DNA of 64,000 nt from Tildeniella nuda ZEHNDER 1965/U140 (GCA_019358895.1 JAHHIG010000018.1:1-64000), one strand, 5' to 3'. Counted from the first letter of the stretch, positions 4,257 to 12,526 are shown. Numbers and translations are program-made. The notes: generated by a model from the letters alone, not told the origin.

Positions 4257-6455
4257 ATGACCTTTGAGCGGATCGCAGTTCAGGCAGCGAGTTTGACCTT
4301 AGCAACGATTTTTAGCCGCGTGCTGTGTGACGGTGGCAGTCGAGTTTTGGGCTGGATGGGCAAAAGCCTGGACGAGAAGACCGAGCAACTCATTGCCAGA
4401 GCCGCTGTGCAGTATATCCAGAACTATGGCGATCGCCACGGCATTCTCAAAGTGCTGGGAATGCGAGAACCCGTCGCGCTAGAGTCGGTTTATACCAATG
4501 TTCAGTTTTTGCACAAGGCGGGTGTCCACTGGTTTGAGTCGATCGAATCGCTAGAGAAAGCCTATCGCCAGTCGGGTAGACGCGGTTTTCAGCTCGATAA
4601 CGCGGTTAAGCAAGATGGGCTTCAAGTTGCCAACGAAAAGCAATACCTGATGGTGCTGGGTGGACCCGGTGCAGGCAAGTCTACCTTTCTCCGCAAAATG
4701 GGCTTGGAAGCACTCAAGGGCAAAGTCGGCGGCTATGCACATGAATGCATTCCTGTGCTGATTGAGCTGAAGAATTTCACTGCCAACGAGATTGATCTAG
4801 AGCGGGCGATCGCGCAAGAATTTCGCATTTGCGGCTTCCCTTCACCGGACGAAATCACCACCAAACTGCTGGAGCAAGGAAAACTGCTCATTCTGCTGGA
4901 TGGGTTAGATGAAGTGCCCACCAAAAACACCGATGAAGCCATCTGTCAGATCCAAAATTTTGTCGATCAGCACGACAAAAATCGCTTTATCGCATCCTGT
5001 CGCGTCGCTGCCTACCGTCACAACTTCCGCCGCTTCAGCGATGTAGCAATGGCAGAATTTGACCAGACGCAAATGCAGCAGTTTATTCACAATTGGTTTG
5101 GCTCTGCCGCTGATCAAACCGCAGGCACGGCTCAGCGCTGCTGGGAACTGTTGCAAAAGCCAGAGCATGTCGCGGCAAAAGAATTGGGACAAACGCCGCT
5201 GCTGCTAACGCTACTGTGCCTGGTGTACGATCGCTCCCAAAACTTTCCCAACAACCGCAGTGGACTTTACTGCAAAGCATTGCGCGTGCTGCTTGAAGAA
5301 TGGGCAGCCGAGAAGCGCATCATGCGCGAACAAATTTATCAGGGCCTGAACACCGAGCTGGAAGAAATTCTGCTGTCGGAGCTTGCCTACTATGGGTTTG
5401 AAGCAGACCGCTTGTTCTTCTCCCAACGCGAAATTGTCAGCCAGATCAAAATCTTTCTCACCTCCAATCTGAACGCGCCGAAGCATTTGGATGGAGAAGC
5501 CATTTTGCACGCGATCGCCATTCAACAGGGCATTCTGGTCGAACGCGCAGAAGATGTGTTCTCCTTCTCGCACCTGACCTTACAGGAATATCTCGCCGCC
5601 CAGTTCATTGATGATCACAACCAGATTGCGGCACTGGTTGCCCGTCACCTGACCGACGATCGCTGGCAGGAAGTGTTTTTGCTCGTTTCCGGGTTGATGC
5701 GCCACGGAGCAGATGAGCTACTGCTGCGGATGGAGCGCAAAACCCGCAAGTACATCAACACGCCACGTCTGGAAGCGCTGCTGCAATGGGCAGACCAAAT
5801 CACAGCCGATACAGGCGGTGCGATTAAGCCAGCCGCCAAACGAGCTGCCGCCCTTTTTCTGGCAGTGGTACGCGATCGCGCCCAGGATTTGGTGCGTATT
5901 CTGCATACTGATCTGGCACGAGTGCTGGATCTGGTGCAAACGCTCGATTTGGTGCGCTCTCCAGCGGCAGTGTCTGCCATTGACCTTTCTCGTGCTGTAA
6001 AGCTTGCCCATGCCCTGCATTTGAACTGTGTGCCTGCTCGCGCCAAGACTCGCAGTCGCACCGTTGCTCGGACTTCACGCACGATCGCCCAGGCACTGAC
6101 CAAAGCTTTGGCACAAGAATTCCATCAGTCCAGAGTGTTCAAAAATATCAACTTCAAAGCAGTCGTTGCCCGATTGGAAGCATTGAAGCTGCGCGAACCG
6201 ACCGCCAATCAGCCCGAAGCACAACAATCCTACAGCGATCGCCTCTCTCAGCTCTGGCTCCACGCCCTTCAACTCGATGCCGATCTAGTCAACCTTACTG
6301 AAGCGGAACTGCAAGCACTGGAAAACTATCTCTATGCCAACTGGTTGATGGTACGTTGCAAGCAAGCGGCTGTCAGAGTATCACCGCAAACCTGGGGCGC
6401 GATCGAGCAGCGGATGCTGAGCCTTGAAGGTATAACGACTCATGACGACGGTTAA
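4257..6455 (+). CDS. NACHT-domain STAND NTPase
   Basis: Walker A GGPGAGKSTFLRK; Walker B-like LLILLDGLDEVP; FSHLTLQEYLAAQF motif typical of NACHT proteins. Confidence 0.85.
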   Translation: MTFERIAVQAASLTLATIFSRVLCDGGSRVLGWMGKSLDEKTEQLIARAAVQYIQNYGDRHGILKVLGMREPVALESVYTNVQFLHKAGVHWFESIESLEKAYRQSGRRGFQLDNAVKQDGLQVANEKQYLMVLGGPGAGKSTFLRKMGLEALKGKVGGYAHECIPVLIELKNFTANEIDLERAIAQEFRICGFPSPDEITTKLLEQGKLLILLDGLDEVPTKNTDEAICQIQNFVDQHDKNRFIASCRVAAYRHNFRRFSDVAMAEFDQTQMQQFIHNWFGSAADQTAGTAQRCWELLQKPEHVAAKELGQTPLLLTLLCLVYDRSQNFPNNRSGLYCKALRVLLEEWAAEKRIMREQIYQGLNTELEEILLSELAYYGFEADRLFFSQREIVSQIKIFLTSNLNAPKHLDGEAILHAIAIQQGILVERAEDVFSFSHLTLQEYLAAQFIDDHNQIAALVARHLTDDRWQEVFLLVSGLMRHGADELLLRMERKTRKYINTPRLEALLQWADQITADTGGAIKPAAKRAAALFLAVVRDRAQDLVRILHTDLARVLDLVQTLDLVRSPAAVSAIDLSRAVKLAHALHLNCVPARAKTRSRTVARTSRTIAQALTKALAQEFHQSRVFKNINFKAVVARLEALKLREPTANQPEAQQSYSDRLSQLWLHALQLDADLVNLTEAELQALENYLYANWLMVRCKQAAVRVSPQTWGAIEQRMLSLEGITTHDDG

Positions 6456-6738: not shown

Positions 6739-9348
6739 ATGTCCTTTGTCGGTCTGCACATTCACAGTGATTACAGCCTTTTAGACGGTGCCAGTCAGTT
6801 GCCGGAACTGGTCGATCGCGCCGTTGAGTTAGGGATGAAGGCGATCGCCCTGACGGATCATGGGGTCATGTATGGGGCGATCGAGCTGCTGAAAGTGTGC
6901 AAGGGCAAAGGCGTGAAGCCCATCATCGGCAACGAAATGTACATCATGAATAGTGATGTCACCAAGCAGGAGCGTCGTCCCAAGTACCACCAGATTGTGC
7001 TGGCAAAGAACGACGTTGGCTACAAGAATCTGGTCAAGCTCACGACCTTATCGCACCTCAAGGGCTTTCAGGGTAAGGGGATGTTCGCCCGCCCCTGCAT
7101 CAACAAAGAAATGCTGGCGGAGTACCACGAAGGTTTAATTGTCACCAGCGCGTGTTTGGGCGGCGAAGTGCCCCAGGCGATTTTACAGGGAAAACCAGAG
7201 ATCGCCCGACGAGTGGCACAGTGGTACAAAGACCTGTTTGGCGACGACTACTATCTGGAAATTCAGGATCACGGCTCGCAGGAAGACCGGATCGTGAACG
7301 TCGAGATTCTCAACATTGCCCGCGAACTTGATATTCAAATTATTGCCACGAACGATTCCCACTACATTTCTTGCTTCGATGTGGAGGCGCACGACGCACT
7401 GCTGTGCATTCAAACGGGCAAGCTGATTTCCGAAGACAAACGACTGCGCTATAGCGGTACGGAATACCTCAAGTCAGCGGATGAGATGCGATCGCTCTTT
7501 CAAGATCACCTGACGGGGGATGTGATTGAGGCGGCGATCGCCACGACCCTCGAAGTTGCCGACAAAATTGAGGAATATCACATTCTGGGCGAACCCCGGA
7601 TTGCAGATTATCCCATCCCAGAAGGCTACAGCACCGCCGACGAGTATTTTGAGCACGTCGCCTGGACGGGGTTGCTGGAACGCTTCAAAGTCCAGTCGCG
7701 GGAGGGAATTGAGCCAGTCTACCGCGATCGGATGGACTACGAACTCAAGATGATGCAGCAGATGGGGTTCGCCACCTACTTCCTTGTCGTGTGGGACTAC
7801 ATCAAATACGCCAGAGACCAGCGGATTCCCGTCGGACCCGGACGCGGCTCGGCAGCAGGTTCTCTCGTTGCCTATGCGATGAGCATTACGAACATTGACC
7901 CCGTGCATCATGGCTTACTGTTCGAGCGCTTCCTCAACCCCGAACGCAAGTCCATGCCCGATATTGATACGGACTTTTGCATCGATCGCCGGGAAGAAGT
8001 GATCAAATACGTCACCGAAAAGTACGGCACCGAGCGGGTCGCGCAGATCATCACCTACAACCGCATGACCTCCAAAGCGGTGCTGAAGGACACGGCGCGG
8101 GTGTTGAACATTCCCTACGGCGATGCCGACAAGATGGCAAAAATGATCCCCATCGTGCGCGGGAAACCCACCAAGCTGAAGGTGATGATTTCGGCAGACA
8201 CGCCTGCGCCGGAGTTCAAAAAGCGGTATGACGATGAGGCGATCGTGCGCCAGTGGATTGATACCGCCATTCGCATCGAAGGCACCAACAAAAGCGTCGG
8301 CATCCATGCAGCCGGGGTCGTCATTTCTGCCTGCCCCCTGGATGAACTGGTGCCCCTCCAGCGCAACGCCGATGGAGCCGTCTTCACCCAATACTACATG
8401 GAAGACATCGAATCCCTGGGACTCCTGAAAATGGACTTTTTGGGACTCAAAAACCTGACCATGATTCAAAAAACGGTCGATCTCATTGAGCAGACGAAGC
8501 ACGAGACGATCGATATGGACGGTCTGCCGCTCGATAACCCCGAAGTCTACAAACTGCTGGCACGGGGCGAACTCGAAGGCGTGTTCCAGCTAGAATCCTC
8601 CGGGATGCGCCAGATTGTGCGCGACCTGAAGCCCGACAGTCTGGAAGATATTTCCTCGGTGCTCGCCCTCTATCGTCCTGGTCCACTCGATGCGGGACTG
8701 ATTCCTAAATTCATCAACCGCAAACATGGACGCGAGGCGATCGACTATCCCCACGAAATCCTGACCACGATCCTGAGTGAAACCTACGGCATCATGGTCT
8801 ACCAGGAACAGATCATGAAAATCGCGCAGGATATGGGCGGCTACTCCCTCGGTCAGGCAGACCTGCTGCGGCGGGCGATGGGGAAGAAAAAGAAAGCCGA
8901 GATGGAAAAGCACCAGGAAATGTTTGTGGCAGGTGCTCAAAAGAATGGCGTGAAGGCAAAAGTGGCATCCGATTTGTTCGATCAAATGGTGATGTTTGCC
9001 GAATATTGCCTCAGCTACGATACCGAGATTCTCACCATTGAATATGGCGCGATCGCGATCGGCAAACTCGTCGCCAACAAACTCCCGTGCACTATCTACA
9101 GCATGACTCCCGCAGGTTACATCTACACCCAACCGATCGCCCAATGGCACGATCGCGGCAACCAACCCGTGTATGAATATCACCTCGACGATGGCTCAAC
9201 CATTCGTGCCACCAAAGACCACAAATTTATGACGATGGATGGTCAAATGCTGGCGATCGACACCATTTTTGAGCAAGGGTTAGATCTCAAACAAACTGAT
9301 CTCAAGCAAACTAAAACTTCTGTGCCTGCTACCGTTGAAGCAGGTTGA
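6739..9348 (+). CDS. dnaE-N: DNA polymerase III alpha subunit, N-terminal half, fused to split DnaE intein IntN
   Basis: PHP/DnaE motifs ([36 protein letters not shown]), then [14 protein letters not shown]...[31 protein letters not shown]. Confidence 0.96.
9007..9348 (+). other. Split DnaE intein, N-terminal fragment (IntN, 113 aa)
   Basis: Begins at Cys (TGC 9007) after extein ...MVMFAEY; block B TKDHKF; resembles Npu/Ssp DnaE IntN. Confidence 0.95.
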
Positions 9349-9382
9349 TCTTGTTGGAGCCGATCGCACAAGGAGCCGTCGT

Positions 9383-10042
9383 ATGGTTAGCACTACGCCC
9401 CCATCCACCAGCCCCACAATTGTCCTCAAGGGCGAACAGCGGGTGGTCATTCATGGACTGCACTGGAACGCTTACGAACAAATCTTAGGCGCTCTACCCA
9501 ATCAGCGTCGAGCCAGACTGATCTATGACCAGGGGACGTTAGAAATTACGATGCCAAACGAAGATCACGATTTTTTCGGTCGCATGATTGGGCGTTTCAT
9601 CTGGATTTTGGTGGAATCACTAAACTTAACTATCAAAACAATGGGTTCCACCACCATGAATTATCCGGCGATCGATCGGTCAGCCGAAGCCGATGAAGCC
9701 TTTTACATTCAAAATCAGCCACAGGTCAGCGGTCGAAACATCAACTTTGCCGAAGATCCCCCGCCTGATCTGGTTGTTGAAGTCGATATCACCCACACAG
9801 ACATCGATAAGAATCGCTTTTATGCCAGTATTGGTGTCCCTGAATTTTGGCGTTTCAATGGTCAAAGCCTCTACATTTATCAACTTCAAGAGGGGCAATA
9901 TGTTGAAGTCGAAGCCAGTCCGACGTTTCCAACAGTACCCAAAGCTCGTCTTTACGATTTTTTAGAACAATGCCGTACCAATGAAGTGCAGGCAAGTAAA
10001 GATCTTCGTCAGTGGGTGCAGCAAGAAATGCAGAGCGATTAA
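9383..10042 (+). CDS. Uma2-family putative endonuclease (PD-(D/E)XK-like)
   Basis: PPPDLVVEVDITHTDIDKNRFYASIGVPEFWRF signature; start at 9383 supported by upstream AAGGAG. Confidence 0.85.
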   Translation: MVSTTPPSTSPTIVLKGEQRVVIHGLHWNAYEQILGALPNQRRARLIYDQGTLEITMPNEDHDFFGRMIGRFIWILVESLNLTIKTMGSTTMNYPAIDRSAEADEAFYIQNQPQVSGRNINFAEDPPPDLVVEVDITHTDIDKNRFYASIGVPEFWRFNGQSLYIYQLQEGQYVEVEASPTFPTVPKARLYDFLEQCRTNEVQASKDLRQWVQQEMQSD

Positions 10043-10081
10043 TGGTTTAACTGACATGACCTATAAGAACTAGAGACGGTT

Positions 10082-10279
10082 ATGAAAATTACTTATGATC
10101 CGGATATTAATGTGTTGAGAATTATCTTGAATAACCAACCCATTGAAGAGAGCGATGAAGGACAACCGGGCATTATTCTTGATTACGATAAAGATGGCAG
10201 TGTTATCGGATTTGAAATTCTTGATGCTTCTAAACGAGTAGAAAATCCTCAGTCGGTGGAGTATTCCATTTCTACTTAA
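10082..10279 (+). CDS. DUF2283 family small protein
   Basis: MKITYDPDINVLRIIL...GIILDYDKDGSVIGFEILDASKR. Confidence 0.8.
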   Translation: MKITYDPDINVLRIILNNQPIEESDEGQPGIILDYDKDGSVIGFEILDASKRVENPQSVEYSIST

Positions 10280-10283
10280 AAGC

Positions 10284-10406
10284 GTGTGTGCGATCGCGCA
10301 ACTGGGTATTAGCTTCCACGATTGGCTTCAGTTAGCACCCCGGGAAACCAAGCCCGAAGGCTCCAACTTAATGTATATCATTCCCGCTGAACCGCTTTCA
10401 CTTTAA
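10284..10406 (+). pseudogene. Possible C-terminal remnant ORF (VCAIAQLGISFHDWLQLAPRETKPEGSNLMYIIPAEPLSL*)
   Basis: Open 40-codon frame with protein-like composition but no clear start or RBS. Confidence 0.25.
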
Positions 10407-10439
10407 GCTTTGAACCACTGCCTTTTAGGAGCTAGACCC

Positions 10440-10769
10440 ATGCCAAAAACAACCGTTTCAGCCGATGGGCAAATCATCATTCCAAAAGAAGTTTTGGATT
10501 TTCTCAAGCTTCAGGCTGGTGATGAAATCGACTTTCTGATTGAAGAGGATGGTAAAGTCATTGTTCAAAGTGCATCTAGCGACAGTCAGGATGATGATAA
10601 ATTACCTCCCAGATTGAAGGTTTTGCAGGAGAAACTACAGAGAGGTGAAAAGATTCATGTGCACGATCTCAAAGGTATGTTGCATCGAGAGGGCGATGAG
10701 CCGATGTCGATCGAAGCAATGGACGAACTCATGAAACAACACGTTGCGAGTAAAGTATTAGATCACTAA
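10440..10769 (+). CDS. AbrB/MazE-like (SpoVT-AbrB fold) antitoxin
   Basis: MPKTTVSADGQIIIPKEVLDFLKLQAGDEIDFLIEEDGKVIV; SD AGGAG upstream of the ATG. Confidence 0.85.
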   Translation: MPKTTVSADGQIIIPKEVLDFLKLQAGDEIDFLIEEDGKVIVQSASSDSQDDDKLPPRLKVLQEKLQRGEKIHVHDLKGMLHREGDEPMSIEAMDELMKQHVASKVLDH

Positions 10770-10775
10770 ATAGCT

Positions 10776-11180
10776 ATGAAGGGTGTCGATACAAATATTC
10801 TGGCTCGCTATTTTTCCGAAGATGATCTAGTGCAGCTAGAGCAAGCATCTCAGCTAATCGATCAGACTGCTCAAATGGGAGATTATCTGCTTGTCAATAC
10901 CATTGTTCTCTGTGAATTGGTTTGGACTTTGGAATCGCGGTATAAGTATAAAAAATGTCCGCTCATCATCGTAATTGAATCGTTATTGGATACAGAAGTC
11001 TTTGTGTTTGAGGATAGGCGAGCGATCGAGCAAGCCTTGGATACTTACAGAATGAGCAAAGCTGGTTTTGCTGATTGCCTTATTAATCGAATCAATCAAG
11101 ATTTAGGTTCTACAGAAACTTATACATTTGATCGAACGACTGAAGGGTTGGATGGATTTACTGTACTTGTGGGGACTTGA
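10776..11180 (+). CDS. vapC: PIN-domain VapC-type toxin (putative RNase)
   Basis: GVDTNILARYF, CELVWTLE, AGFADCLI, TFDRTTEGLDGF acidic PIN motifs; starts 6 bp after the antitoxin stop. Confidence 0.85.
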   Translation: MKGVDTNILARYFSEDDLVQLEQASQLIDQTAQMGDYLLVNTIVLCELVWTLESRYKYKKCPLIIVIESLLDTEVFVFEDRRAIEQALDTYRMSKAGFADCLINRINQDLGSTETYTFDRTTEGLDGFTVLVGT

Positions 11181-11185
11181 GAGAA

Positions 11186-11296
11186 ATGGTCAAAATTATT
11201 AGTCGTCAAGCGTTAGGAACCCAGCCTGTTTTTGACATTGGGGTGTCATCCGACGACCATAACTTTCTGTTGGCAAATGGGTTGATTGCCTCCAAT
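11186..11296 (+). other. Split DnaE intein, C-terminal fragment (IntC, 37 aa)
   Basis: Ends in Asn (AAT 11294-11296) followed by +1 Cys (TGT 11297). Confidence 0.95.
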
Positions 11297-12526
11297 TGTT
11301 TCAACAAATCGCACTCGACGGCGTATGGGTATGTAACCTATCAAACGGCGTATCTCAAGGCAAACTATCCGATCGAATACATGGCGGCGCTGTTGACAAC
11401 GAACAGTGGCGATCAGGATAAAGTGCAGCGGTATATTGCCTCCTGTATGGCGATGAATATTCGCGTGGAGCCACCGGATGTGAACCGATCGGGCATCGAT
11501 TTCACCCCCTTAGAAGACCGTATTTTGTTCGGCTTAGGCGGTGTGCGAAATGTGGGGATGGGACCGATCGAATCCCTCCTTTCCGCTCGTGAAGAAGGTC
11601 CGTTCAAGTCATTAGCGGATCTGTGCGATCGCGTTGATTCTCGTACCGTGAACCGTCGTGCCCTGGAAGCATTGATCTACTGTGGGGCGTTTGACACGAT
11701 CGCACCCAACCGTCAGCAGCTCATCAAAGATTTGGATCTAGTGATTGATTGGGCACAGTCTCGCGCCAAAGATCGCGCCAGTGGACAGGGGAATCTGTTT
11801 GATTTGTTTAGCAGCACAGCGATCAAAGAAGCCCCTGCGAGCTTTGAAACGGCTCCCAAAGCGCCACCCACACCAGATTTTCCTCAACAAGAAAAGCTAC
11901 GTTTGGAGAAAGAAATTCTGGGCTTTTACATTTCCGATCACCCACTGAAAGCCTTGCGAGAATCGGCGCGGGTGCTGGCTCCCATCAGCTTAAGCGATCT
12001 CAACGACTATAAAGAAGGGACGAGTATTAGCGCGATCGTCATGCTCACCAGCGTTAAACCCGTCGTCACGAAAAAGGGCGATCGCATGGCAATCATTCAG
12101 ATTGAAGATTTGACGGGACACACAGAAGCGGTCGTCTTTCCCAAGTCCTATGAGCGCATCCATCAACACATTCTGGCGGATGCACGACTGATGGTGTGGG
12201 GCAAGGTCGATCGCCGCGACGAACAGGTGCAGTTCATCATTGACGATGCCGAGCCGATCGAGTCTGTTCGGATGGTGATGGTAGAACTTGATCCCACGCT
12301 TGCCAGTGACATTGAGCAACAGCATCGATTACGCACTGTTCTGCTGCAACAGCGAGGCGAGGATGATAAAGCAAAAGTGTCTGTAGTGGCGATCGTTAGT
12401 GCTCAAGACAAGCGCCACTTTGTCCGCTTTGGTCCACAGTTTCGAGTGCAGGACGATCAAGCAGCGATGAATGCGCTCACAAAAGCGGGTTTTCAGGCAC
12501 GCGTCTCATCGTTAGCAACCGCCTAG
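11186..12526 (+). CDS. dnaE-C: Split DnaE intein IntC fused to DNA polymerase III alpha subunit, C-terminal half
   Basis: MVKIISRQALGTQPVFDIGVSSDDHNFLLANGLIASN|CFNKSHSTAYGYVTYQTAYLKANYP; OB-fold region follows. Confidence 0.96.
   Translation: MVKIISRQALGTQPVFDIGVSSDDHNFLLANGLIASNCFNKSHSTAYGYVTYQTAYLKANYPIEYMAALLTTNSGDQDKVQRYIASCMAMNIRVEPPDVNRSGIDFTPLEDRILFGLGGVRNVGMGPIESLLSAREEGPFKSLADLCDRVDSRTVNRRALEALIYCGAFDTIAPNRQQLIKDLDLVIDWAQSRAKDRASGQGNLFDLFSSTAIKEAPASFETAPKAPPTPDFPQQEKLRLEKEILGFYISDHPLKALRESARVLAPISLSDLNDYKEGTSISAIVMLTSVKPVVTKKGDRMAIIQIEDLTGHTEAVVFPKSYERIHQHILADARLMVWGKVDRRDEQVQFIIDDAEPIESVRMVMVELDPTLASDIEQQHRLRTVLLQQRGEDDKAKVSVVAIVSAQDKRHFVRFGPQFRVQDDQAAMNALTKAGFQARVSSLATA

Follow-up and report, generated by a model that had tools for sequence, protein, structure and literature searches.

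Adjacent halves of the split DnaE intein around a nuclease-family and toxin-antitoxin cassette in Tildeniella nuda: a probable chromosomal fractured gene

Why would the two halves of a split intein in an essential polymerase gene lie next to each other on one strand, flanking a small gene cassette? The question is raised by the dnaE locus (6739 to 12526) of Tildeniella nuda ZEHNDER 1965/U140, found in a 64,000-nucleotide stretch (GCA_019358895.1 JAHHIG010000018.1:1-64000), the whole of which is called the window. The cyanobacterial split DnaE inteins Ssp DnaE and Npu DnaE were reportedly described by Wu et al. in 1998 and Caspi et al. in 2003, and fractured genes, in which split inteins go with free-standing endonucleases, mainly in phage and metagenomic loci, are said to go back to Dassa et al. 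in 2009. The original prediction saw the locus either as a relic of the original splitting event, resembling fractured genes, or as a secondary reunion. Here, we report that the locus is probably a chromosomal fractured gene, ancestral to the dispersed split dnaE, whose halves were never separated and whose homing endonuclease gene (HEG) has been lost or replaced. G and f numbers label genomes and families, respectively; G000 is the window genome.

The upstream gene, dnaE-N (6739 to 9348, plus strand; 869 amino acids [aa]; PHP, pol3-alpha, and finger domains by Pfam), comprises an extein (6739 to 9006; PHP, polymerase, and finger domains, called from the open reading frame [ORF] and Pfam) that ends in ...MVMFAEY and a 113-aa IntN (9007 to 9348; stop codon, 9346 to 9348), which was identified from its sequence and a PDB match to Npu DnaE. 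Translated from Cys1 at 9007, IntN begins CLSYDTEIL, and its block B reads TKDH. On the same strand, dnaE-C runs from an ATG at 11186 to 12526; its product reads MVKIISRQALG...DHNFLLANGLIASN up to the splice junction and CFNKSHSTAYG after it, that is, a 37-aa IntC (11186 to 11296, plus strand; MVKI...DHNF...ASN; sequence and PDB match) and an extein (11297 to 12526, plus strand; N terminus, CFNKSHS) with HHH and OB domains (Pfam). The insertion point, between ...FAEY and CFNKSH of DnaE, is contiguous in intein-less congeners. The gap (9349 to 11185) holds 39 in-frame stops, leaving two separate reading frames, and the dnaE-N query had a single match in the 6.08-Mb window genome, which has no other dnaE. 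All splice residues are present (Cys1, block B TKDH, HN block F, terminal Asn, and +1 Cys), and the joined IntN and IntC align full length to Npu DnaE intein structures (2keq; E value, 2.4e-51). On the basis of these residues and this homology, trans-splicing of the separate half-proteins into a single DNA polymerase III alpha subunit is expected.

All cassette genes lie on the plus strand, like the dnaE halves, with intergenic spacing of 5 to 160 bp. They are a Uma2 nuclease-family gene of a dnaE-linked subclade (9383 to 10042; PF05685; E value, 1.4e-19), a DUF2283 small protein (10082 to 10279; PF10049; E value, 1.2e-18), a relic of the last ~43 aa (3' end) of a gene here called g474 (10275 to 10403; 70% identity; E value, 2.9e-13), which stands complete between the halves of G398, G432, and G443, an AbrB/MazE-like antitoxin of a VapBC-like pair (10440 to 10769; PF04014; E value, 1.5e-8), and a PIN-domain toxin-like gene (10776 to 11180; PF01850; E value, 1.4e-6), the stop of which is 5 bp ahead of the dnaE-C ATG. 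The antitoxin gene is immediately 5' of the PIN gene (6-bp gap), giving VapBC-type gene order. ORFs, Pfam, and the PDB match bear out the adjacency that had been predicted, and the Pfam matches agree with the four gap genes then named, to which the g474 relic is added. This compact block may be cotranscribed; a promoter/terminator scan of the window gap gave a signal no better than chance.

Is the arrangement real? The original prediction had allowed for a misassembly at 9348 to 11186, and the window genome is split over 38 contigs. Misassembly of the locus is unlikely, because the layout recurs in other genomes, among them G404, where it sits on a 6.2-Mb contig; with independent assemblies (G404, G398, and G011) in agreement, and with both contigs of the sister species G418 terminating within the equivalent interval, in a 374-bp repeat, we give next to no credence to an assembly artifact. 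In G418, a segment with the g474 end and the AbrB gene is duplicated (copies, 83% identical) at the facing contig ends between the dnaE halves, and this repeated segment probably broke that assembly.

Adjacency of the dnaE halves is recurrent across cyanobacteria and no isolated oddity. This IntN occurs in 103 of the 386 genomes of a phylum sample, in which the places of IntN and IntC were compared; among the matches listed, the halves are on one strand, in order, and <10 kb apart in at least 12 of the 103, spread over seven families (G000, G286, G027, G011, G336, G354, G039, G207, G298, G002, G066, and G215), contrary, in the sampled genomes, to the earlier view that the other cyanobacterial DnaE inteins described have separated halves. 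Additionally, G157 has IntN and IntC within one open frame, and three f18 genomes have halves ~13 kb apart in reversed order; the remaining placed IntN genomes of the sample, again among the matches listed, have halves that are distant or on separate contigs. Family-wide searches gave many further adjacent cases. Dispersed relatives occur within the window's own family (G400; G412, G396, and G423, the last three with halves on separate contigs).

What occupies the gap elsewhere? When gaps were sorted by translation, one class contained a lone LAGLIDADG HEG of about 252 to 260 aa (G286 [f29], many f11 genomes, G576 [f18], and G592 [f23]), with a shortened copy in G539 (f57). This HEG carries LAGLIDADG_3 (E value, 1e-10; above the curated cutoff), is profile-related to the solved homing endonuclease 2dch (E value, 5e-6), and is single-copy; every clear match in a 390-genome scan lies between dnaE halves. 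Its pairwise dN/dS is 0.09 to 0.19. Decay is seen as single stops (G485 and G494) and short relics (G492 and G505). Transposase-like ORFs break up the HEG between the dnaE halves of G491. AlphaFold models of the HEG (pLDDT, 61) and g474 (pLDDT, 51) did not have the quality needed for a fold search. A free-standing HEG and little else in the equivalent gap of other cyanobacterial families upholds the likeness to fractured genes that had been proposed.

Further gaps contain Uma2, which is of the dnaE-linked type in the window, G418, G398, G404, and G011 and of a different type in G443; ORFs in G442, G430, and G428 are Uma2-like by similarity. Others contain g474, accompanied by Uma2 or, in G432, by a Dam-type methylase, or are short noncoding remnants. 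The gap of G215 holds a lone 226-aa gene with no Pfam match and an EAK motif as in PD-(D/E)XK nucleases, possibly a third nuclease type.

In which direction did the locus change? Where the HEG is present, its stop codon overlaps the start codon of IntC (CAT GGT TAA / ATG GTT AAA). The HEG C-terminal peptide ILRSYKHG-stop, or a close variant, stands directly 5' of IntC in the HEG-less G460, G469, and Limnofasciculus baicalensis, and also in two genomes with halves that now lie far from each other, G255 and G497; in these two, dispersal therefore came after adjacency. The halves of G400 are separated by 4 Mb, and an orphan IntN tail-Uma2-g474 block occupies a third place in that genome (G400:C1:1127451-1129523); its Uma2 is 76% identical to that of the window, and the block is apparently the leftover of a rearrangement. 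Judged from these sequences, the dispersed state is derived from the adjacent state in at least two families. The shared gap with its free-standing HEG and the HEG 3' fossil in two dispersed genomes favor the relic account of the original prediction. Its other account, in which dispersed halves were rejoined by rearrangement, gained no supporting evidence beyond the occurrence of dispersed relatives in the window's family; order, strand, gap type, split site, linked Uma2, and the HEG/IntC overlap recur in several genera or families, and the fossils of dispersed relatives point the opposite way, making reunion highly improbable.

A splitting event of local origin, in which direct insertion of Uma2/g474 broke a contiguous DnaE mini-intein independently of the LAGLIDADG lineage, is another rival account. 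Contiguous inteins at this site do exist (G157, G499, and G476; linker, 18 or 42 bp), f1 and f5 have no HEG trace, and their cargo is homologous between the two families. The split site, however, is identical to that of HEG-bearing and dispersed lineages, and G157 and G499 are placed among HEG-bearing and dispersed relatives. The junction of both, CATG-TTAAAATT, is one base shorter than the split-type CATGGTTAAAATT; because it looks like a 1-nucleotide deletion of the split-type sequence, it suggests that these contiguous inteins arose by refusion and are not the unsplit ancestor. On balance, we regard local splitting as unlikely. The contiguous call was limited to these three genomes; G395 had been pointed to by open-frame length, and its direct translation gave in-frame stops. 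A second intein, at a different site, lies upstream of the contiguous split-type intein in DnaE of G157 (L038:4974-6700), and G360 (L065) apparently also has a second, different-site DnaE intein.

A possible cousin was found on a 204-kb contig (IMGVR_UViG_3300024336_000005, viral by IMG/VR database prediction), which has its own dnaE with an intein at the same site (L246:2167-5017). There, the HEG (38% identical to the G286 HEG) and IntN form one in-frame fusion; IntC begins in an overlapping frame, at the position homologous to the cyanobacterial HEG/IntC overlap. An HNH endonuclease ORF (L246:1457-1993) further interrupts this dnaE upstream. None of seven distant matches inspected had a same-site split-type intein.

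A fractured-gene history of the window locus would run as follows. The intein at the standard dnaE site would have been split when its homing endonuclease turned into a free-standing gene, leaving IntN, then a free-standing cassette, then IntC; the LAGLIDADG state would persist in other cyanobacterial families, and dispersal of the halves would lock in the split, as in Nostoc and Synechocystis. The window lineage would have lost the HEG, or a dnaE-specific Uma2 would have taken its place together with a toxin-antitoxin pair and remnants; we can only infer a replacement by Uma2, since the window cargo has no detectable LAGLIDADG trace. As long as the halves are adjacent, one recombination event with an intein-less allele could add or remove the whole unit, which would account for intein-plus and intein-minus congeners.

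Such congeners were found in the window's lineage (Stenomitos), which we take to belong to Leptolyngbyaceae. On extein trees (FastTree and quick trees), intein-plus G404 is paired with intein-less G403 (96% identical), G398 is close to intein-less G397 (95% identical), and G000 and G418 fall among four intein-less Stenomitos genomes with intact dnaE. Intein presence changes 10 times on the f1+f5 extein tree, with at least 7 changes forced by well-supported branches; these may be gains or losses.

Several observations weigh against descent from an HEG-bearing fractured gene. No trace of the gap-family LAGLIDADG HEG was found at the window locus or elsewhere in the window genome, and neither f1, f5, nor Nostocaceae had an HEG fossil 5' of IntC. 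Resolution of the intein tree is weak. In identity profiles, both within Stenomitos and for G404 compared with five intein-less congeners, neither a peak nor a dip indicated a co-conversion tract; recent homing lacks support because no such tract appears, either within Stenomitos or between G404 and intein-less G403. The gap contains ordinary host genes in some adjacent cases (G027, G207, and other f2 genomes). Flanking synteny was uninformative, with no conserved genes beyond dnaE in the stretches compared.

Does the present cassette take part in intein mobility? Uma2, DUF2283, and the AbrB-PIN pair could be passengers or a small defense or toxin-antitoxin island with no such role, which is compatible with the fractured-gene history and which we judge to be evenly balanced against a functional link. 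Uma2 and toxin-antitoxin families are common (the window genome alone has 21 Uma2 matches), gap contents are highly variable, and the relic/AbrB segment is duplicated in G418. Between the window and G418, linked Uma2 proteins are 68% identical and exteins 95% identical; gap contents therefore evolve or turn over fast. The g474 proteins are mostly helical, with an N terminus resembling the defense protein JukB (PADLOC; E value, 8e-13; example, L032:2444-3865, minus strand), and their genes occur in 38 of the 390 cyanobacterial genomes scanned, in some cases between the dnaE halves. A dnaE-exclusive g474 held for seven genomes and was dropped when a class-wide scan placed it elsewhere in most carriers.

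Against the passenger view, dnaE-linked Uma2 copies form their own clade (support, 0.889), apart from the 10 to 20 paralogues per genome, and co-occur with the intein across genera, being gained or lost with it and missing from intein-less G420. Close copies of the window Uma2 sit between or beside the dnaE halves in relatives. The linked copy of G396 is frameshifted, and a paralogue outscores it in a single-piece search. The IntN tails of the window (PATVEAG), G418, and G398 share PATVEA-like ends, and the IntN-Uma2 junction therefore appears to be homologous in different genera. The window Uma2 family is named putative restriction endonuclease, a predicted class; that it is an active homing enzyme is possible but rather improbable, and no co-conversion signal supports it. 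Similarly tentative, and in our view rather improbable as a whole, is the broader proposal that the adjacent IntN-nuclease-IntC unit is still mobile in Leptolyngbyaceae, that the dnaE-dedicated Uma2 is a new homing endonuclease type replacing LAGLIDADG, and that such units gave rise to every dispersed split dnaE gene of cyanobacteria.

How does the locus compare with known systems? Split DnaE inteins and fractured genes are each known separately. Compared with the Ssp and Npu DnaE inteins, the host gene, insertion site, split point, splice residues, and predicted trans-splicing are alike, whereas the window halves are adjacent and codirectional with a cassette instead of dispersed, and intein-less congeners occur. 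As in the fractured genes ascribed to Dassa et al., a conserved DNA-synthesis gene is split by intein halves with a free-standing nuclease-type gene (in the window, the putative nuclease Uma2) between them; unlike those, the loci here are at the classic dnaE site of cyanobacterial chromosomes, contain LAGLIDADG or Uma2 in place of a Vsr-related family, and grade up to dispersed halves with fossils. Free-standing LAGLIDADG_3 homing endonucleases (PDB 2dch; phage endonucleases) are of the same family as the gene occupying the gap elsewhere among cyanobacterial families, but none is present in the window genome. The full-length DnaE intein of Desulfonema ishimotonii (415 aa), published as related to cyanobacterial DnaE inteins (PMC6390638), is unsplit, in contrast to that of the window. 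Splitting of dnaE has been accounted for by genome rearrangement or constructive neutral evolution, mostly inferentially (PMC3403396). The literature searched contained no description of a free-standing endonuclease lying between the halves of a dnaE intein on cyanobacterial chromosomes; key papers lay outside the search, and earlier notice is possible.

Split DnaE inteins are standard protein-ligation tools, and the origin of the split in an essential polymerase gene has so far been mostly inferred. The series from intein-less, contiguous, HEG-containing, and HEG-decayed loci to those with other nuclease-family or toxin-antitoxin genes between the halves and to dispersed halves with fossils opens this history to direct tests in living cyanobacteria. 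Many new natural IntN/IntC pairs come with it, as does Uma2 as a candidate nuclease association.

Immediately 5' of dnaE-N, the window contains a NACHT/STAND NTPase gene (4257 to 6455) that matches the PADLOC candidate PDC-S60 (E value, 1.8e-11).

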